Positions 21,827-30,518 of a DNA stretch of 64,000 bases are shown here, piece after piece. Each line of letters starts with the position of its first letter. Position 1 is the first letter of the stretch. The notes beneath the pieces were generated by a model that did not search any database, had not been told where the DNA came from, and saw only the letters and a program-made list of their open reading frames with translations. This stretch comes from Deltaproteobacteria bacterium (GTDB taxonomy: Bacteria > Desulfobacterota > Desulfobulbia > Desulfobulbales > SURF-16): assembly GCA_016219175.1 (NCBI GenBank), contig JACRCD010000079.1:1-64000 (forward strand), in the 5' to 3' direction. Both the position numbers and the translations under genes were made by a program.

Positions 21827-24172
21827 TTAGGTGACAACGATGGGAAGTTTCAGCGTGAATGTTGTCCCTTTGCCCGCTTCGCTCTCGACCATGATCTCCC
21901 CGTTGTGTTTCTTGATAATATCATAAGCTATGCTCAGTCCGAGACCAGTGCCTGCGCCAACGTCCTTGGTCGTGAAGAAAGGTTCAAATATCCTGTTTAT
22001 CTTGTCCTGGGGAATTCCACAGCCGGTATCCGCGATTGAGACATATATATGTTCCTTGCCGCTCCATGTCTTGACCGTTATCATTCCCTGTTTCTCTATG
22101 GCATGGGCGGCATTGACCAGGATATTCATAAATGCCTGGTTCAGTTGGCCGGGATTGCACTTTGTCAGTGGAATATCCCCATATTCCTTTTTCAGCTCGG
22201 CCTTGTACTGCAATTCGTTCCAGACTATGGTTATCGTGCTTTCCAAGCCGGCATTGATGTCCGCCATGCTGAATTCCGCCTCATCAAGCCTGGCGAAAAC
22301 CTTGAGGTTCTGGACTATATCCTTCACTCTCTCCGTCCCATCAAGGGATTCCGCCACCAGGCTTTCTATGTCCGATATGATATAATCAATCTTCAGTGCT
22401 TTCTTGCTTTCCTCAATACCGGCAACCAGCCTGTCCGGATTTTTTTGGGCTAAGCCCTCAACAATTCTTATAAATTCGAAAACTTTACCGGCGTATTTTT
22501 GCAGGGTCCCGAGGTTGCTCATGATAAAACCTATGGGATTATTGATTTCATGCGCCACCCCTGCCGCCAGCTGACCAATGGACGCCATCTTCTCCCGCTG
22601 CAGCAGCTGGGACTGCACAGCCTTGAGCTCGGAAAAGGCCTTCTCCAGCTCTTTATTAAGGAATTTTAGTTCTTCATTGCTTTGCTGCAAGGCTTCCTCA
22701 TTTTTTTTGCGCTCGGTAACGTTTCTCGATACGTGCACAACCTGGATGATATTCCCATTATTATCTTTTATCGGTGAGGTGGAGACTTCCACATATGCTT
22801 TCTTACCATTTTTAGCATAATGCACATGCTCTACCATCGAATGGCCGTTGTTTTTTTCCAAGTCCAACAATGGGCAGATATCGTCCGCCGACTGGCATGC
22901 CTCGGAACTGTGATGGGTTATCTCGTGACATTTTTTGCCAATCGTCTCTTCCTCGCTGAATCCAAACTCTTTCAGGAAAACACTGTTGGCATCCACGATG
23001 GTAAAGTCATTGACGTCAATAATTGAAATAGCGTCATTCATACTGTCAAGCACGGTTTTTGTGAATTTATTGGACTGCTTGAGCTTCCGGTTGAGCTTGA
23101 GAACATACGAGGTGACAAGACCCATAAAGGTCAAGCCGGCAATGCTTAAGACAAACAGATACCAGTATGCCTTCAAAACCTCGGTCAGGGTTATTTTCCC
23201 GAAGTCAACGTAAGGACCGACCCGCAGCTCTTTCATGGCTTCGTGTACCGGCTGGTAATCGAGAGGTGTCGTCCAGCCGGCTATTTTGGCGCTCTTTGCC
23301 GCTTGACTGTCCTCCGGCATGCTTAAAAGCGCAATGGCGACCTTCTGGGCCAAGTCATCCGAGGTATGGCCGACCTTTGCAAATGGCCATTCAGGATAAA
23401 GAGGTGTGCTGAGTACATAGGGAAACCCCTCAACATGCCGCTCATTGATAATGCGGAAAGAACTAAGGTCAATCAGCCCTTCATCAGCCATGTGTTCAAG
23501 GATATCGGTGCGTACCGTGCCGGCATCGATCTTGCCGTCTCTTACCGCGTATACAACCTTGTCGTGGGTGCCCTCGAACCGCAGACTTTCAAATTCCTTG
23601 TAAGGATTAATGCCTTTCTTCTTCAGCTCCAGCCATGCTACCCGCCAGCCGCCGAAAGAGGTTTCCTCAACAGCCATGAAAGACTTGCCGCTGAGGTCCT
23701 CAAGGTTCTTGATGTCCTGCCGGTCATTTCGGCAAAAGATCACCCCGCCAAAGACGGTGAAAGCGCCCTTGCCGCTTTTGTTTTTCAGGGTAGAGATGCG
23801 CGTCACGCCATAAGCCGCTTCCAACTCGACATAAATAGAGGTGTTGGCCAGGACAAAATCAACAGCGCCCTGTTTTACGGCCGGACCTATTTGCTGGAAA
23901 TCAAGCGGGACAATAACAAATGAATATTGGGGATTTTTTTCGGTAAGGTATTTCGCGGTAGGCGCCCAAATCTTTATAGTCTCATCAAAACCGCGATGGG
24001 CGAGGACGCCAATTCTGACGGTACTGCTCTCCGCATAGGTACCGGCGGGGGCCAGCATCAACAGGGCGAGGAGAGCAATAGCCAGCAATAAAGAAGCACA
24101 ACGGACAGTTACGACCCGCATGCCCTTTCGTCCCGGCCAGGCGCCATTATGGAGGAATGATTCAAGTGCCAT
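21827..24172 (-). CDS. Sensor histidine kinase with periplasmic PhnD-type ligand domain and PAS
   Basis: 781 residues. A signal segment (~18-50) leads into a PhnD/phosphonate-binding-like periplasmic domain (~55-320), as in TtrS-type sensors. A transmembrane helix (~340-362) and a PAS domain (~375-495) follow. Then come a HisKA dimerisation helix with G-V-A-H-E-I-N-N-P and a HATPase (N-box N-I-L-V-N-A-A-H-A-I, G1 D-T-G-C-G-I-P, G-T-G-L-G-L-S). All kinase boxes are intact. ATG 24121, which starts the signal peptide directly, is an alternative start. No response regulator gene is adjacent, so the partner is elsewhere. The ligand is unknown. Confidence 0.9.
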   Translation of the reverse strand: MALESFLHNGAWPGRKGMRVVTVRCASLLLAIALLALLMLAPAGTYAESSTVRIGVLAHRGFDETIKIWAPTAKYLTEKNPQYSFVIVPLDFQQIGPAVKQGAVDFVLANTSIYVELEAAYGVTRISTLKNKSGKGAFTVFGGVIFCRNDRQDIKNLEDLSGKSFMAVEETSFGGWRVAWLELKKKGINPYKEFESLRFEGTHDKVVYAVRDGKIDAGTVRTDILEHMADEGLIDLSSFRIINERHVEGFPYVLSTPLYPEWPFAKVGHTSDDLAQKVAIALLSMPEDSQAAKSAKIAGWTTPLDYQPVHEAMKELRVGPYVDFGKITLTEVLKAYWYLFVLSIAGLTFMGLVTSYVLKLNRKLKQSNKFTKTVLDSMNDAISIIDVNDFTIVDANSVFLKEFGFSEEETIGKKCHEITHHSSEACQSADDICPLLDLEKNNGHSMVEHVHYAKNGKKAYVEVSTSPIKDNNGNIIQVVHVSRNVTERKKNEEALQQSNEELKFLNKELEKAFSELKAVQSQLLQREKMASIGQLAAGVAHEINNPIGFIMSNLGTLQKYAGKVFEFIRIVEGLAQKNPDRLVAGIEESKKALKIDYIISDIESLVAESLDGTERVKDIVQNLKVFARLDEAEFSMADINAGLESTITIVWNELQYKAELKKEYGDIPLTKCNPGQLNQAFMNILVNAAHAIEKQGMITVKTWSGKEHIYVSIADTGCGIPQDKINRIFEPFFTTKDVGAGTGLGLSIAYDIIKKHNGEIMVESEAGKGTTFTLKLPIVVT

Positions 24173-24359: not shown

Positions 24360-25226
24360 TCAGAGAGAATGGTCCTTGGTGAAAAAAGTGGCAAACAGGC
24401 TCAGAACAAACCAGCCAAAGGCAAAAAGAATGACGGTGGCCCCGGTAGCGCTCCGCGCCCACTCCTGGGCCGAGACGAGAAGCCCCGCCACGGCCGAGGT
24501 GACGCTTATAGCCAGGGCCCACCAGAACATGGCGCCGGCCGAACGGGTGAAATTCCTGGCCGCGGCGGCCGGGACGATAAGCAGGGCCGTCACCAGCAGC
24601 ACGCCCACGGCCCAGACCGAGAAGGTCACCACCAGCGACAGGAGCGCCGCGTAGACATACTGATAGGCAGCGACCCGCACCCGGTGCGCCGTTGCCAGGG
24701 TGGGCGAGATGCCGATATAGAGCATGCGGTTATATCCCCAGGCCTGAAATGCCATGACGGTGATAAAGAGCAGGATGAGCCAGCGGATCTCTCCTTCGCC
24801 GATGGTGAGGATATCGCCATAGAGGAAGCGCTGCATGTCCCTGGCCAGACTGGCATCCCTGCTCACCACCGCCAGACCGAAGGCAATGAGGGCCGAAAAG
24901 AAGACCCCGATCACCGTGTCCGAGGAAAGCATACTGCGCCGTTGCACCGCGACGATGCCGAGTCCGATTAACAGGCCGAAAGCCGGCATGGTCAGGTGGG
25001 GATCAACCGAGGCGAGCAGACCGATGGCCACTCCGGCGAAAGCGGAGTGGCTGATGGCATCGGCAAAGAAGGCCATGCGGAAGTTGACCACCTGCACCCC
25101 CATGGCCGCGGCCATGGGCGCCAGCAGTACCAATCCCACCAAGGCCTGCTGCATGAAGCGCGATTGCAGACACTCACAGGGAATAAGCAGGGGGATCAAG
25201 TCGAAAAAAACAGTCAGATCAAACAT
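24360..25226 (-). CDS. znuB: Metal ABC transporter permease (ZnuB/MntB family)
   Basis: About 288 residues with eight or so hydrophobic segments. The block G-V-Q-V-V-N-F-R-M-A-F-F-A-D-A-I-S-H-S is the ABC-3 family signature near the second helix. The frame extends to 25292, but AGGAAG 9 nt before ATG 25226 marks the start, overlapping the ATPase gene by 8 nt. It forms the membrane pore for Zn2+ or Mn2+ import. Confidence 0.92.
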   Translation of the reverse strand: MFDLTVFFDLIPLLIPCECLQSRFMQQALVGLVLLAPMAAAMGVQVVNFRMAFFADAISHSAFAGVAIGLLASVDPHLTMPAFGLLIGLGIVAVQRRSMLSSDTVIGVFFSALIAFGLAVVSRDASLARDMQRFLYGDILTIGEGEIRWLILLFITVMAFQAWGYNRMLYIGISPTLATAHRVRVAAYQYVYAALLSLVVTFSVWAVGVLLVTALLIVPAAAARNFTRSAGAMFWWALAISVTSAVAGLLVSAQEWARSATGATVILFAFGWFVLSLFATFFTKDHSL

Positions 25227-26022
25227 GGAATTTCTTCCTGCAGCAGGCGGCCGTACAGCTCGTGTCTCCCTCCGGCATGCCGTGGGCGTCAACGAGCCCC
25301 ATGTGCAGCCCGAAAATGGCCGTCAGGGTCTCGCCTGTCAACACCTGGCGCGGCGGACCTTCGGCCGCAACCCGGCGGTTCAGACAGATGACATGGGTCG
25401 CATGATGGGTGACCGTCGCCAGATCATGGCTCACCATAATCTGGGTAAAGCCTTTTTCACGGCGCAGCTCATCAAGCAACTCGCAGAAGATCTGTTCACC
25501 CTGCATATCAACGCCGGCCGTGGGTTCGTCGAGCACGAGCAGATCCGGCTCCTCCTGCAGGGCAAGGGCCAGGAGCACCCGTTGCATCTCTCCGCCGGAA
25601 AGGGCGCCCAGTCTGCGTCCCTCCAGGGCTTCAGCCCGCACCGCGCCAAGCAGCTCCCGCGCCTTTGCCATGCCCCGGCGACACCCGAACCAGAAAGGCA
25701 AACGCTGACGCCCCATGAGCATGAACTCCATGACCGTAATCGGCATGCCCCGGTCAAAAGAAAAGCGCTGCGGCACGTACCCTATCCTCGGCGCCTTCTC
25801 CCCGGGGGCGATACTGATCAAACCATGATAAGGAATCATGCCCAGCAGGGCCAGCAGCAGGGTGCTCTTGCCCGCTCCGTTCGGTCCGATGACCGCGGTC
25901 CAGCTGCCCCGCGGCACGGAAGCGTTGACCCGGTCGAGGATGCTGACTCCGCTGCTGGTCACAGTCACTTCCTTGAAGGTGACGGCGGCTTTAGCCAGTG
26001 GCCCATTGTCTATCCTGATCAT
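25219..26022 (-). CDS. znuC: Metal ABC transporter ATP-binding protein (ZnuC family)
   Basis: 267 residues. Walker A G-P-N-G-A-G-K-S-T, Q-loop Y-V-P-Q-R, signature L-S-G-G-E, Walker B L-L-V-L-D-E-P and H-loop V-S-H-D are all present. The tail has a Cys/His-rich end (C-T-A-A-C-C) that might bind metal. It overlaps the substrate-binding protein gene by 4 nt and znuB by 8 nt, so this is a tight operon. Confidence 0.93.
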   Translation of the reverse strand: MIRIDNGPLAKAAVTFKEVTVTSSGVSILDRVNASVPRGSWTAVIGPNGAGKSTLLLALLGMIPYHGLISIAPGEKAPRIGYVPQRFSFDRGMPITVMEFMLMGRQRLPFWFGCRRGMAKARELLGAVRAEALEGRRLGALSGGEMQRVLLALALQEEPDLLVLDEPTAGVDMQGEQIFCELLDELRREKGFTQIMVSHDLATVTHHATHVICLNRRVAAEGPPRQVLTGETLTAIFGLHMGLVDAHGMPEGDTSCTAACCRKKFHV

Positions 26023-26957
26023 TTTGCGCCCAAGGTCTTGCCAAGAACCAGCATGTTATGCCGCATCACTGTCTCGTAATAATCAAGGGGACCGTTCTCG
26101 GGACCGGAGGCCCCCGGGTCCAGAGTAGCGACAGCCACGCCTGTCTCCCTGGCTATTGTCTGCCCCACCTTCGCCGGATACTGAGGCTCGGTAAAGATCC
26201 CCCCCGCCTTTTTCTCTCTGATGATTTTCACAATCCTTAACATCTCGGCTGCCGAGGGTTCCTGTCCGGCGTGGGCCTGGACCACGGCCACGACTTCCAG
26301 CCCCATATCGCGGGCCAGATAATCAAAAACGCCATGCTGGGTGACGATGCGGTTGTTGCCGAGCCGTTTACCGAGAGCGGAAAAATCGTCCGCCAGCTTC
26401 TGCATTTTTTCCTCGTACGCCTTGGCATTGGCCAGGAAGGTTGCCGCGCCGGCCGGGTCGAGCTCGGCAAGCTCGGCCGCAATATTCATGGCCAGCCGGC
26501 CGGCCAACCGCGGGCTGGTGAACAGATGGGGATTTACCCCGCCATGCTGATCATGGTCATGTTCCTGGCGGTCAGCCTCTTCATGGTCATCCTGGCCTGC
26601 ATAGCGCAGGATCTCCTTGATTCCGGCGGAGCTGTCGACCACCTTGAGGTCCGGATTGGCCTTTTTTACCGGTGCGCCCAGGTATTCCTCCATGCCGAGA
26701 CCGTTGACGATCAACACGTCGGCCCTGGCTATCTTTTGCATGTCTTGGGGAGTGAGGGCATAGTCATGGGGGCAACCCAGGGCTGCCGGCAACATTAATT
26801 GCACCGTTACAGCACTATTGCCGCTTACCACATTACGGGTAATCTGGAAGATGGGAAAGGTGGTGCAGAGGATAGTTTTCTTATTCCCATCCGCCCGTGC
26901 GGGCAGACAGGCAAGAAGCAGGGCCAGGACAATAAGGAAAGGTTTCATCCGATTCAT
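26019..26957 (-). CDS. znuA: Metal ABC transporter substrate-binding protein (ZnuA family)
   Basis: 312 residues with a Sec signal peptide (cleavage near P-A-R-A-D). Cluster A-1 metal-binding features include C-P-H-D-Y for the first His, a His/Asp-rich loop (D-D-H-E-E...H-D-H-D-Q-H) typical of zinc rather than manganese binding proteins, and later H-G-V-F-D-Y and Q-A-H-A-G. The protein captures Zn2+ (less likely Mn2+) in the periplasm. First gene of its operon and divergent from the arsR-selenoprotein operon, so the two may share control. Confidence 0.92.
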   Translation of the reverse strand: MNRMKPFLIVLALLLACLPARADGNKKTILCTTFPIFQITRNVVSGNSAVTVQLMLPAALGCPHDYALTPQDMQKIARADVLIVNGLGMEEYLGAPVKKANPDLKVVDSSAGIKEILRYAGQDDHEEADRQEHDHDQHGGVNPHLFTSPRLAGRLAMNIAAELAELDPAGAATFLANAKAYEEKMQKLADDFSALGKRLGNNRIVTQHGVFDYLARDMGLEVVAVVQAHAGQEPSAAEMLRIVKIIREKKAGGIFTEPQYPAKVGQTIARETGVAVATLDPGASGPENGPLDYYETVMRHNMLVLGKTLGAK

Positions 26958-27230: not shown

Positions 27231-27267
27231 TTGACATTTTCAGCTCAACGCATAAATATATATTTAT
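27231..27267 (+). promoter_or_regulatory. arsR-operon promoter with a 16-bp operator palindrome over the -10 region
   Basis: TTGACA at 27231-27236 is followed by a -10-like TAAATA at 27253-27258 (spacer 16). The perfect palindrome ATAAATATATATTTAT (27252-27267) covers that -10. Operators of ArsR/SmtB repressors are AT-rich dyads of this kind over the promoter, so autoregulation by the next gene is the natural reading. Confidence 0.65.
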
Positions 27268-27335
27268 ATATTAGTTTTCAGAAAATACCGCCCAATACCG
27301 TCTTGCGAACAAAAAAAACCGCATAAACAAAACGA

Positions 27336-27689
27336 ATGAACAGACAACCGCCAACACCCCCCGCCATGGACATCCGGGAATGCTTAGCGAAAACGGACCC
27401 GCAGGGTGTGGCCTTTCTGGCCAAAACCCTGGGGGACGAAAACCGGCTGAGGATCATCATGGCCCTGGCCCAGGGAAAGAAACCGGTTTCCCGGCTGGTC
27501 GAGGAACTGGGTATCTCTCAGCCCCTGGCCTCGCACCATCTCAAGGAACTGAAACGGGCGCTGCTGGTGACCATGGAGAGGAACGGTCCTTTTGTTTACT
27601 GCGAACTGGCGGACCAGCGCATCGCCTCAATCCTGGCCGACCTGGGCGCGTTGGCGGCCGACCTGCTCGCCAGGCGAACCTCCTTTTAA
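27336..27689 (+). CDS. ArsR-family winged-helix transcriptional regulator
   Basis: 117 residues. A winged helix with L-G-D-E-N-R-L-R-I-I-M-A-L, the recognition segment G-I-S-Q-P-L-A-S-H-H-L-K-E-L and the wing V-T-M-E-R-N-G-P-F-V-Y-C, the classic ArsR pattern. Only two Cys are present (near residue 16 and in the wing), so the inducer site is not a canonical ELCVC motif. No strong ribosome site precedes ATG 27336; ATG 27366 is an alternative. It likely represses its own operon, which continues with four selenoproteins, and could also act on divergent znuA. Confidence 0.88.
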   Translation: MNRQPPTPPAMDIRECLAKTDPQGVAFLAKTLGDENRLRIIMALAQGKKPVSRLVEELGISQPLASHHLKELKRALLVTMERNGPFVYCELADQRIASILADLGALAADLLARRTSF

Positions 27690-27706
27690 TTGGAAAGAGA
27701 ACGGCA

Positions 27707-28180
27707 ATGAAGGAACAAAAAAAACTGCATGAAATCCTGGACCACCTTGAACCGGCCAAAGCCCTTTCATTGCTGACTCCGGCCCTAAAAAAAATCCTGG
27801 CCCATCTGGATGAAAAAGCCAGGGTCAAGTTTGTCACGGACATGATCGAAGAGCAAGGGGTCGATAAGCTCTCCAGCATGGTGAACCTCTGACTGGCCGA
27901 ATGCATGGACGAAGGTGTCGATCCAACGCAGATGTGTCAGAGCCTGGTGCATAAAGTGGCGCAATCCAAACAACTGATGGCGATCACCGATCCCGGCATC
28001 CTGGTACTGTTTGAAAACTGGCTCGATGAGCTGGAAGACGAGGTGGCGGCGTATCTGCACATCCATCCCGCCTCCGGCGCCGTTGAGCTGGCCGACAAGC
28101 TCGGGCTGTCAAAAAGCGGCGCTGTTTTTCTGCTGGCGAAGCTGCGGAGGGAAGGAAAATTTACAGGAGGTGGACAATGA
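27707..28180 (+). CDS. Selenoprotein with predicted C-terminal winged helix (Sec62)
   Basis: The frame from ATG 27707 (GGAAAGAG upstream) reads through TGA 27890-27892 to the TGA at 28178-28180, giving 157 residues with Sec at 62 (V-N-L-U-L-A-E-C). Codon usage is continuous on both sides, and ATG 27905 lacks a ribosome site, which argues against two genes. A SECIS-like hairpin follows at 27906-27925. Residues 1-60 are helical. The last ~45 residues (H-P-A-S-G-A-V-E-L-A-D-K-L-G-L-S-K) look like a winged helix. U62 and C66 form a U-x3-C pair that could be a redox switch or metal site. It overlaps the next gene by 4 nt (ATGA). Function unknown; a redox-sensing regulator is inferred. Confidence 0.72.
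27906..27925 (+). promoter_or_regulatory. Bacterial SECIS-like hairpin for Sec62
   Basis: TGGA/TCCA and CGA/TCG form a 7-bp stem with one bulged A (27921); the apical loop AGGTG has G in position 2. The loop begins 20 nt after the TGA, inside the spacing expected for SelB-recognised elements. Confidence 0.65.
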
Positions 28181-29898
28181 GAAAACCGTGGCGAATTGTG
28201 TTCCTGTTTCTGGTTGCGCTTCTCAGCCCCATGGTGATGGGAACGGCGGCAGCCGCCACCCTGGCCGATGTGCAACAGGAAGCGGTGCGCGGCGGCTACC
28301 GGCTGATTAACAGCGACGAACTCCGGGACATGCTCAACCGTCATCCCGCGGGCGTAGTGCTGGTCGATACCCGCCAGGAATGGGAGTATGCGGCGGGCCA
28401 CATCAGCGGGGCGGTGAACTTCCCCATGGAGCCCACCTGGCTTGCCCGTCTGACCAAGCGTGGAGAGTTGCAACAGTTCCTGGGCCAGGACAGGGAAAAA
28501 CATATCGTCTTTTACTGAGCCGGACTGGCCTGAGTCAGAAGTGACTCGGCAGCCCGGGTGGCTGTCTCGCTTGGTTACAATAATGTGTACCGTGACCCGC
28601 TGGGTTTTCCCGAGTGGCAGGCAAAGGGTCTGCCAACGGCGGCAACGGCCGGCGGTCACAATAAAACCGATCCCGCCCTGGCCCCGGCGGCTTCGGCCAA
28701 GGGCCTGATGCAGGGTTGGGCGTTTGTTCTCACCCTGGCCGGTATTTTTCTCGGCGGCATGGCGCTCAATCTTACCCCTTGCGTCTATCCCCTCATCCCC
28801 ATCACGGTGTCCTATTTCGGCGGCCGCAGCGGCCAGGGCCAGGGGAAACTGCTCGCCCACGGTTTCTGTTACATCACCGGCCTGGCCATGACCAATTCCA
28901 TCCTTGGCGTGGTGGCCGCCATGACCGGCAGTCTCATGGGCGGCATGCTGCAAAACCCCTGGGTGCTGGCCACGGTTGCCGTGGTGCTGCTTGCTTTCGC
29001 CAGCAGCCTTTTCGGCTTCTGGGAGCTGCGCTTGCCTACCGGCTTAACCCGCGCCGCCTCCAGAAGCTATGCCGGCTATTTCGGCACCTTCTTCATGGGC
29101 ATGACCCTTGGGGTGGTGGCGGCGCCGTGCATCGGCCCTTTCGTGCTCGGCCTGTTGACCTGGGTCGCCAGCACGGCAAACCCTGTTTTCGGGTTCATCG
29201 TTTTTTTCACCTTGAGCCTTGGCCTCGGACTGCCCCTGTTCATCCTGGCCATGTTTTCCGGCAGACTTGAAAAAATGCCCCGCTCCGGCGAATGGATGAA
29301 CTGGGTGAGGAAGGCCATGGGCTGGGTGCTGGTCGGCATGGCCGCCTATTTTGTAAGACCGCTCTTTCCCAAGGCGGCAAGCGTCGTTATCTACATCCTG
29401 ATCGCCCTGGCCGGTGGCATTCATCTGGGCTGGCTCGACCGGAGCAAGGCAGCCTTCCGGGCCTTTGCCTGGATAAAAAACGGCGCCGGCATTGCCGGGG
29501 TCTCTCTTGCCCTTTTTCTGGCCGCTTCCTGGGTCCTCCAGGGACAGGGGGTCACCTGGCAGCCCTATTCACCAGAGGTGCTTGCCCAGGCGAGAAACAA
29601 GGGGCAGCCGGTGATCATGGATTTCTACGCCACCTGGTGCGCGCCCTGCCGGGAGCTGGACGAGATCACCTTTCACGATCCGGCGGTCGTCAAAAAAACC
29701 GCGGGCTTCGTCATGGTAAAAATCGATCTCACCGAGGGCAACAATCCCGTCTACCAGCAGCTTGTCAAGGACTACGACGTAAGAGGGGTTCCCACCGTTG
29801 CCTTTCTGGACGGGAGCGGCGTTGAGCGGCGCGATATGCGGCTGGTTGATTTCATGCCGCCGTCAGAGTTTGTCAAATGGCTGGATAAAATCCAATAA
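28177..29898 (+). CDS. Selenoprotein: rhodanese - DsbD/CcdA membrane domain - thioredoxin fusion with two Sec (U114, U119)
   Basis: One frame of 573 residues, interrupted only by TGA at 28516 and 28531. A GGAGGTGG site precedes ATG 28177. Order: signal peptide (~1-27); periplasmic rhodanese (~35-145) whose active loop reads F-Y-U-A-G-L-A-U-V-R-S, where related rhodaneses have Y-C-x4-C; DsbD-like membrane domain with C202 (T-P-C) and C318 (A-P-C) in its helices; periplasmic thioredoxin domain with C488-A-P-C491. DsbD moves electrons from cytosolic thioredoxin to periplasmic partners; here the acceptor seems built in as a possible selenenylsulfide/diselenide rhodanese. Each TGA has its own SECIS-like hairpin. 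Substrate (persulfide, selenium or sulfur species) is inference. Confidence 0.88.
28530..28549 (+). promoter_or_regulatory. SECIS-like hairpin 1 of the rhodanese-DsbD gene (for U114)
   Basis: GAGTCA (28532-28537) pairs perfectly with TGACTC (28542-28547) around GAAG, with one G-U and one C-G pair outside. The loop starts with G and lies 19 nt after TGA 28516. The second TGA is part of the 5' side of this stem, so both elements are nested in coding sequence. Confidence 0.8.
28548..28566 (+). promoter_or_regulatory. SECIS-like hairpin 2 of the rhodanese-DsbD gene (for U119)
   Basis: CAGCC (28550-28554) pairs with GGCTG (28560-28564) around CGGGT, extended by a G-U and a G-C pair. The loop has G in position 2 and lies 21 nt after TGA 28531. 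It abuts hairpin 1; the two can coexist if the outer pairs of one open. Confidence 0.75.
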
Positions 29899-29909
29899 AG
29901 GAGGAAGTT

Positions 29910-30179
29910 ATGCTGAAAATACGTTTTTTTCTCAACGAACCCAACGGCAAGACCTGAAACCACTTCAAGGAAATGTTGCCCAGGCTGGGCACAAATGATG
30001 CCGTTTCCATTGAGGTTATTGCTAAGCCGCGCCAGGAATACCAGACAATGGCCTACGCCGACCTGGGTCTTCCCAAGGCGCCGGCCGTCATGATCGGCAA
30101 AGATATTATCGTCGAAGGCCGGGACATCGACGAACAGGAACTCGACAACATTATCCGCCAGCGCATGGCACACAAATAA
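29910..30179 (+). CDS. Small thioredoxin/glutaredoxin-fold selenoprotein 1 (Sec16)
   Basis: 89 residues, with AGGAGGAAGTT directly before ATG 29910. TGA 29955-29957 is codon 16 in the segment N-G-K-T-U-N-H-F. The pattern is thioredoxin-like: first strand K-I-R-F-F-L, Sec at the start of the first helix, A-P-A-V-M-I as the cis-Pro strand, and a final helix. It has no signal peptide and no Cys, so it would act in the cytosol through Sec alone (monothiol-type). About half identical to the next gene, a tandem duplicate. A likely reducing partner of the upstream DsbD fusion, by context only. Confidence 0.83.
29977..29991 (+). promoter_or_regulatory. SECIS-like hairpin of selenoprotein 1
   Basis: TGCCC (29977-29981) pairs with GGGCA (29987-29991) around AGGCT; the loop has G in position 2 and lies 24 nt after the TGA. 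The identical hairpin occurs at the same distance in the next gene. Confidence 0.75.
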
Positions 30180-30197
30180 GTCAATAAGGAGGAAATC

Positions 30198-30518
30198 ATG
30201 CTGAAAGTCCATTTTTTTCTGAACGAACCCAACGGCGGGCCCTGAAAGCACTTCAACAAGATGATGCCCAGGCTGGGCACAAAATATGACGTCGCCATTG
30301 AAGTTACATCCAAACCCAAGGCCGAGTATCTGACTGACGAATATTTCGCCCTTGATCTGCCGGTGGCCCCGGCCATCCTGGTTGGAGACGAAATCGTCAC
30401 CGAAGGCAAGGATTGCGAGGACCGCGCGGTCGAGGTGGTCATCTGCCGCAGTCTTGGCTTGCCGGAACCGGAAGAGGAAAGCAAGACGGGAGTCCTCGGC
30501 AGACTGTTCGGCCGTTAA
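30198..30518 (+). CDS. Small thioredoxin/glutaredoxin-fold selenoprotein 2 (Sec16)
   Basis: 106 residues, with AAGGAGGAAATC before ATG 30198. TGA 30243-30245 is again codon 16, in N-G-G-P-U-K-H-F. Strand K-V-H-F-F-L and cis-Pro segment V-A-P-A-I-L-V-G match its neighbour. Two C-terminal Cys (in G-K-D-C-E and V-I-C-R) and a longer tail distinguish it. The shared U-x-H-F motif at the helix start is the likely active site. It begins 18 nt after selenoprotein 1 and is the last gene of the operon. Confidence 0.83.
30265..30279 (+). promoter_or_regulatory. SECIS-like hairpin of selenoprotein 2
   Basis: TGCCC (30265-30269), loop AGGCT, GGGCA (30275-30279), 24 nt from TGA to loop, identical to the copy at 29977-29991. 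Confidence 0.75.

Follow-up and report, generated by a model that had tools for sequence, protein, structure and literature searches.

Which system is encoded by a run of five genes that together contain five in-frame TGA codons, and what could it be for? The question is raised by a locus in a stretch of 64,000 nt (hereafter, the window) from contig JACRCD010000079.1 of a Deltaproteobacteria bacterium (assembly GCA_016219175.1), where the frames, read directly, reveal five co-directional genes within positions 27336–30518: one for an ArsR-family regulator, followed by four for proteins with selenocysteine (Sec). An original prediction, made from the sequence alone, had proposed here a selenoprotein operon whose frames, starts and overlaps we find as described and whose TGA codons are conserved in relatives, but its statement that no described system has this gene set does not stand. 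All five proteins exceed the NCBIfam cut-offs for, in order, TsoR, TsoA, TsoB, TsoC and again TsoC, and the Tso operon is listed in a 2026 review (PMC13188914), which cites Haft and Tolstoy (2025); on these two grounds we discarded the idea of an undescribed new system. Judging from its sequence, the operon in the window is a further copy of the already named Tso operon. No statement of a function for Tso was encountered in the accessible part of the review, nor a Tso-like protein in the accessible part of a Desulfurivibrio proteomics paper (PMC12142623).

We propose, with moderate confidence, that the Tso operon encodes a Sec-based thiol/persulfide relay that crosses the inner membrane and is controlled by a regulator of its own. 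To the named system our analysis would add a testable function, via a candidate regulon and a DNA site that link it to sulfur-carrier-type proteins and to an enzyme resembling sulfide:quinone oxidoreductase (SQR), as well as the view that TsoR-TsoA form a sensing module whose outputs are exchangeable. The candidate regulon and the idea of a Sec-based sensor are new as far as checked, with Haft and Tolstoy (2025) lying outside that check. The genes, their Sec codons and the hairpins resembling a Sec insertion sequence (SECIS) are as follows:

27336–27689, + strand: TsoR, ArsR/SmtB-family regulator (NF045707, 146.3 bits, cut-off 115; PF01022)
27707–28180, + strand: TsoA, LULAxC selenoprotein of 157 residues with U62, Cys66 and Cys77 (NF045695, 211.5 bits, cut-off 170)
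27890–27892, + strand: TGA, Sec62 of TsoA (TGA in 39/40 aligned sites)
27906–27925, + strand: SECIS-like hairpin of TsoA, 4 bp with a 12-nt loop (pairing and shuffle test)
28177–29898, + strand: TsoB, 573 residues with U114 and U119 (NF045694, 924.5 bits, cut-off 805)
28516–28518, + strand: TGA, Sec114 of TsoB (TGA in 79/80 aligned sites)
28530–28549, + strand: hairpin after Sec114, containing the Sec119 codon (five inner pairs near-invariant)
28531–28533, + strand: TGA, Sec119 of TsoB (TGA in 79/80 aligned sites)
28548–28566, + strand: SECIS-like hairpin after Sec119 (paired third-base changes; observed pairing reached by 0/1000 shuffles)
29910–30179, + strand: TsoC1, thioredoxin-like selenoprotein of 89 residues with U16 (NF045708, 136.7 bits, cut-off 45)
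29955–29957, + strand: TGA, Sec16 of TsoC1 (TGA in 79/80 TsoC sites)
29977–29991, + strand: SECIS-like hairpin of TsoC1, 6 bp with a 3-nt loop (pairing and shuffle test)
30198–30518, + strand: TsoC2, thioredoxin-fold selenoprotein of 106 residues with U16 (NF045708, 138.7 bits, cut-off 45; AlphaFold2 model, predicted local distance difference test, pLDDT, 92)
30243–30245, + strand: TGA, Sec16 of TsoC2 (TGA in 79/80 TsoC sites)
30265–30279, + strand: SECIS-like hairpin of TsoC2, 6 bp with a 3-nt loop (pairing and shuffle test)

Selenocysteine codons and their hairpins

The genome encodes a complete Sec machinery, a check that the original prediction had itself proposed, with selA, selB, tRNA-Sec and selD all above their family cut-offs and selD itself containing one TGA. 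Genes tsoA and tsoB overlap as ATGA, and the two TGA codons of tsoB are five codons apart, within the motif UAGLAU in the window. Comparison of the rhodanese/DsbD protein (TsoB) with genome contigs retrieved 110 relatives. The 80 best loci, nearly all titled Desulfo-type or deltaproteobacterial, were used (handles with L, G and C denote loci, genomes and contigs), and a Tso operon is also present in the cultivated Desulfoprunum benzoelyticum (L071); TsoB rows with less than 50% identity, which are other rhodaneses, were excluded from the codon counts, and L100 does not have the site. Counting the window sites, TGA occupies the aligned codon in 39/40 TsoA sequences and in 79/80 for each of Sec114, Sec119 and the TsoC site. 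The single non-TGA codons are AGA in TsoA, TGC at Sec114, TGT at Sec119 and TGC in TsoC. Both TsoB exceptions belong to one protein, from L098, with Cys at both Sec positions, and the TsoC exception, from L022, likewise has Cys; for TsoA, no clear Cys ortholog was found among the aligned sites, but only the Arg form of L089.

In that TsoA gene (L089:2620), AGA replaces the Sec codon and the hairpin is preserved; sequencing error and decay are indistinguishable here. Separately, genome G278 contains a full-length, stop-free TsoB above the cut-off (G278:C128:37540–39243) in addition to a TsoB with two TGA codons, apparently representing non-Sec and Sec paralogs in one genome.

Each TGA is followed by a hairpin, as originally proposed, although the distances from UGA to the loop in the window are 17, 19, 21, 25 and 25 nt, and not within the 19–24 nt indicated there; nor do stems of 5–7 bp follow all five codons, given the 4 bp of the TsoA hairpin. 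Pairing was evaluated by shuffling synonymous codons within alignment columns (1000 shuffles), which keeps the protein and the codon use, after removal of identical and incomplete rows; the remaining rows are related to each other. None of the 1000 shuffles reached the observed pairing for the hairpins of TsoA, Sec119 and TsoC, that is, for three of the four site classes. The pair +23:+29 of the Sec119 hairpin is C-G in 70 and T-A in nine of the 79 distinct rows, without exception, and involves third codon positions on both sides. Conversely, the observed pairing of the Sec114 hairpin was reached by 105 of the 1000 shuffles and its inner pairs are near-invariant; covariation gives this hairpin no separate support, and it was dropped as an independent covarying SECIS. 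The Sec119 hairpin, whose loop is 36 nt after Sec114, might serve both Sec codons of TsoB.

Could the TGA codons instead be real stops, or remnants of pseudogenes that are read across by accident? The standard code stops at each of them, Rfam scans gave no SECIS match and, as a point against Sec decoding, the non-Sec forms still pair: 7/7 in the Sec119 hairpin of TsoB from L098, 6/7 in TsoC from L022 and 4/4 in TsoA from L089. Since they do, hairpin pairing alone cannot discriminate Sec from non-Sec, and we abandoned these forms as negative controls. However, the occurrence of TGA, with few exceptions, at the aligned codons of relatives, the complete Sec machinery, the synonymous covariation and the match to curated selenoprotein families make true stops extremely improbable, and the conservation of TGA at aligned codons led us to reject them. 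The comparisons confirm, at the sequence level, that the five in-frame TGAs are genuine conserved Sec codons and not chance occurrences.

TsoR and TsoA as a putative sensing module

As originally predicted, the regulator is of the ArsR type (NF045707 and PF01022). No Cys column is conserved among 35 TsoR sequences, of which 15 contain no Cys, 14 contain one and six contain two; inspection of Cys/His conservation highlighted, apart from the common fold, the HH of the recognition helix alone. The BigR model scored 42.9 bits on TsoR, below its cut-off of 155. The persulfide sensor SqrR uses the Cys pair C41/C107 (PMC9995734).

TsoA was matched in 45 of the 395 phylum genomes at E up to 0.001, with 32 above the cut-off; Cys66 and Cys77 are invariant (36/36) and Sec62, within the motif LULAEC in the window, is present in 35/36. 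The tsoA gene starts 14–35 nt past the tsoR stop codon in 33/35 cases. All 41 full-length, TGA-bearing phylum places with readable upstream DNA, out of 42 such places, have an ArsR gene immediately before TsoA (a count by loci, 52/52, corresponds to ten places doubled plus one partial TsoA). Since the regulator lacks a conserved Cys, whereas TsoA carries Sec62, Cys66 and Cys77 and follows the regulator wherever the upstream DNA was readable, TsoA probably supplies a redox or persulfide signal to TsoR; most simply, these sequences would mean that TsoA stands in for the sensor that TsoR lacks. The winged-helix fold originally suggested for TsoA fared poorly, with Pfam scores below cut-off and no Foldseek match at E < 1 for its model, which is helical with a confident C-terminal part. 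A search of PDB sequences with the TsoA profile gave one match to a repeat protein (E 7.2e-5, 26 bits, 39 positions), with no stretch passing alone, and was discarded.

Two further groups of TsoA-like proteins were observed. In L152, L153 and L154 (G278, G236), short proteins with an in-frame TGA in the motif VERUMQMC lie behind an ArsR gene and a membrane gene that resembles, by eye, those for VTT-domain proteins, and are followed in L152 and L153 by a methyltransferase-like gene. For the protein from L152, which scored 59 bits where the TsoA cut-off is 170, NCBIfam gave no other match; these proteins possibly constitute an unlisted selenoprotein family. In L155, L157 and L158, Met-rich, TGA-free proteins similar to the C-terminal part of TsoA are encoded directly behind ArsR genes.

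The DNA preceding tsoR contains two candidate elements:

27231–27236, + strand: –35-like element TTGACA (judged by eye)
27250–27269, no strand assigned: TsoR operator candidate GCATAAAT-ATAT-ATTTATAT, with two mismatches to ATATAAAT-N4-ATTTATAT

The palindrome ATATAAAT-N4-ATTTATAT was found, within four mismatches, in 24/31 TsoR upstream regions, compared with 3.8% of shuffled ones, and CTTGACA or its complement occurs in 12/31; TsoR probably binds this AT-rich palindrome over its promoter. Allowing one mismatch at most, 24 operator-like sites were counted in the 32 TsoA genomes, versus four for the reversed pattern; 14 of these genomes contained no site. In 19 genomes that lack TsoA, the operator and the reversed pattern gave one site each. 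Among the 24 sites, 13 are upstream of tsoR-tsoA, one is between tsoA and tsoB, one precedes a tsoC gene by about 300 nt and is accompanied by a divergent ArsR-like open reading frame (ORF), two are additional sites in the genome of the window and seven show no visible relation.

The two additional sites define the candidate regulon. On contig C27, a perfect operator (C27:539–558) is separated by 312 nt from a downstream DsrE-like gene that contains an in-frame TGA (L166:870–1184; motif LQAUGKLLDLHG) and is followed by TsoY, which also carries a TGA (472.7 bits, cut-off 250). NCBIfam gave no match for the DsrE-like protein at E up to 0.01; homologs of its gene occur in 70/395 genomes at E up to 1e-5, and many of these relatives are TGA-bearing too, most rows having one TGA. 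On contig C81, a site with one mismatch lies 52 nt before a DrsE_2 gene; next come the gene for a flavoprotein similar to type III SQR and the start only of another gene, whose counterpart in L081 belongs to the MMPL family. The same DrsE_2 gene, by visible identity, is found downstream of tso in L022 and L081, behind sites with two and three mismatches, respectively, and with a small ORF between. A search for further regulon members among the isolated operator-like sites yielded no coherent set.

Gene order also separates the putative sensing module from its outputs. Over the 42 TsoA places, TsoB follows directly in 19, a DsrE-like protein is nearby in 13, only TsoC in four and none of these in six, and TsoB and a DsrE-like protein never occur together beside TsoA (0/42). 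All 13 DsrE-like neighbors are on the same strand and within 3 kb, 11 downstream and two upstream; 12 are TGA-bearing and that of G148 has Cys, and the DsrE domain (PF02635) was above cut-off in three of the five tested and just below it in two. This count took in 42 of 51 TsoA rows (nine partial, stop-free rows were excluded), 32 of 80 DsrE-like rows, including all those within 3 kb on TsoA contigs, 31 of 41 TsoC rows and 22 TsoB rows (21 with two TGAs and above cut-off, plus a partial row from G083), leaving aside DsbD-like rows and the stop-free TsoB of G278. Two partial TsoB pieces came to light outside this count, an N-terminal one cut by a contig end (G142:C382, L108) and a C-terminal thioredoxin-domain one between TsoA and TsoC (G330, L121), and neither G142:C382 nor G330, one of the four TsoC-only places, has a DsrE-like neighbor. 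Examined from the side of TsoB, 81 loci have upstream an ArsR-rhodanese fusion (14), a called TsoA (36) or neither (24), the rest being partial or short of DNA, and TsoA and the fusion were never found together (0/81). The fusion profile was seeded with 13 of the 14 fusion loci, and 13/13 keep the Cys pair of the ArsR domain and the CxxxxC of the rhodanese. In L080, one of the 24 loci with neither regulator, a perfect operator precedes the orphan TsoB.

A possible, if doubtful, interpretation of these patterns is that TsoR-TsoA is a two-protein, Sec-dependent transcription sensor, in which a Cys-poor ArsR repressor would be coupled to a Sec62/Cys66/Cys77 center in TsoA that reads redox or persulfide, and would control, through ATATAAAT-N4-ATTTATAT, a reactive-sulfur regulon composed of TsoB-TsoC, the DsrE-like protein with TsoY, and DrsE_2 with the SQR-like protein. 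We know of no transcription sensor that uses selenocysteine. Several observations weigh against the proposed relay with its TsoR-TsoA module as a whole. The Cys residues of TsoR, where there are one or two, are at scattered columns, with one column being Cys in 15/35, and the Sec region of the TsoA model is poor (pLDDT 54–61; predicted template modeling score 0.41). Six of the 42 TsoA places have no TsoB, DsrE-like protein or TsoC nearby; of these, G142:C382 has a TsoB cut by the contig end, G191 and G249 end just past TsoA, G300 was read no further, and G216 and G142:C195 are truly without partners where read. Two DsrE-like neighbors (G195, G240) sit 2.5–2.7 kb upstream of TsoA, and the 24 TsoB loci with neither regulator type were examined over about 1.7 kb upstream, three more lacking enough DNA. 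As to the regulon, the seven operator-like sites without visible relation compare with four control sites of the reversed pattern, Pfam gave no match to the DsrE-like protein of C27 at E up to 0.001, the SQR-like protein scores far less than SQR_III requires (98 bits, cut-off 525), and in L024 the DrsE_2 gene comes immediately after TsoC, where there is no operator-like site even when three mismatches are allowed.

Other neighbors were also recorded. A membrane-protein cluster is often located 3′ of TsoB or TsoC (23/111 loci, e.g., L064:8467–9162), and a single member, when tested, proved to be a VTT-domain protein. This neighbor clustering includes some shadow frames among its ORFs and clusters, and only named clusters were used. 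In the window, a metal ABC transporter (ZnuA-type binding protein, ATPase and ABC-3 permease; 24360–26957, – strand) is divergent from tsoR, and a histidine kinase with a phosphonate-binding-type domain and PAS domains is encoded at 21827–24172 (– strand). A ZnuA-type gene beside tso recurred in the clustering only in L120, a copy of the same place.

TsoB, TsoC and a possible relay across the membrane

TsoB is composed, in this order, of a signal-peptide-like segment (by eye), a rhodanese domain (PF00581) with U114 and U119, a DsbD transmembrane domain (PF02683) with C202 and C318, and a thioredoxin domain (PF13899) with C488 and C491, in agreement with the DsbD-type membrane domain and Sec rhodanese that had been proposed from the sequence. 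Its C-terminal domain matches the sequences of DsbD structures, its membrane part CcdA and its N-terminal part rhodaneses. Across 81 sequences, U114 and U119 are present in 78 each (one sequence has CC and two have gaps), C202 in 79, and C318, C488 and C491 in all 81; the redox loop keeps the rhodanese-type frame FYUAGxxUVRSDSAAR. The thioredoxin fold anticipated for the two small Sec proteins was also supported, one of them, TsoC2, having been modeled. In their motif, NEPxGxxU, Gly13 and Sec16 are invariant and correspond, in an alignment made by eye, to the first and second Cys of thioredoxin; the redox residue is located at the N-terminal end of helix 1.

In the proposed relay, reducing equivalents would come from cytosolic thiols, perhaps via TsoC as the cytosolic partner of TsoB, to the membrane pair C202/C318, and would pass from there to C488/C491 in the C-terminal thioredoxin domain and then to the rhodanese Sec pair outside the membrane, which would reduce, or take sulfur from, polysulfide or persulfide. 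By analogy with DsbD, the flow of reducing equivalents through TsoB would most likely be outward, and TsoR together with TsoA would turn the tso set on as reactive sulfur rises. Reactive sulfur is the likely substrate class because of the regulon and neighborhood evidence, which goes beyond the data of the original prediction. If this is true, Sec would have two roles in sulfur-cycling bacteria, one in a transmembrane persulfide relay and one in the control of genes.

The same architecture could be devoted to the detoxification of metals, metalloids or selenium oxyanions, in which case TsoR would be a true metalloregulator and the Sec relay would act at the membrane, reducing or transferring species of arsenic, mercury, selenite or tellurite. 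Such a function would fit the NCBIfam name of TsoR, metalloregulator, and the company of the short TsoA-like Sec protein in L152 and L153, with ArsR and a methyltransferase-like gene that is similar, by eye, to the arsenite-methyltransferase-like protein of L098. It nevertheless seems unlikely: TsoR, with no conserved Cys, appears to lack the usual Cys metal sites, the partners found are of the sulfur type (DsrE-like, SQR-like, rhodanese and, in one locus, TauE), and no ars, mer or selenite-resistance genes stood out in the tso neighbor clusters, where no systematic search for them was made. A general repair of periplasmic disulfides or peroxides is another account that we hold improbable. TsoB would then be a Sec-powered reductase, similar to DsbD or ScsB, for periplasmic thioredoxin-like proteins, with the rhodanese replacing the alpha domain and no sulfur being handled; indeed, TsoB resembles DsbD over the membrane and gamma domains, and its UxxxxU pair could cycle as a diselenide. 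Nevertheless, the retention of the rhodanese-type frame in the redox loop, the occurrence of CxxxxC in the rhodaneses of the fusion regulators, at the spacing of UxxxxU, and the sulfur-carrier-type proteins in the candidate regulon all argue against such a repair function.

Comparison with known systems

The set in the window is like the Tso operon, with all five proteins above curated cut-offs and no difference in kind seen; it has two copies of TsoC, and the TsoY of the same genome is in a second operon, with the DsrE-like selenoprotein. ScsB is related to the transmembrane thiol reductases DsbD and CcdA. TsoB shares with the DsbD/ScsB/CcdA group the DsbD_TM domain with its conserved Cys pair and a C-terminal, gamma-like thioredoxin domain with CxxC, whereas it differs by the N-terminal rhodanese with two Sec residues; a score of 264.7 bits with PRK00293.1, below the cut-off of 330, indicates that it is related to DsbD but not a member. 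Likewise, TsoC shares with thioredoxins the fold and a redox residue at the N-terminus of helix 1, although it has Gly-x-x-Sec without the first Cys, and its best PDB match has an E of 4.3e-3 and a template modeling score of about 0.5.

Among regulators, TsoR shares with SqrR and BigR the ArsR fold and a sulfur-related candidate regulon, but has no conserved Cys pair and is followed instead by a Sec partner protein. The ArsR-rhodanese fusions differ from TsoR-TsoA in being a single fused protein with a Cys pair and no Sec; they occupy, however, the same position before TsoB, and their CxxxxC has the spacing of the UxxxxU of TsoB.

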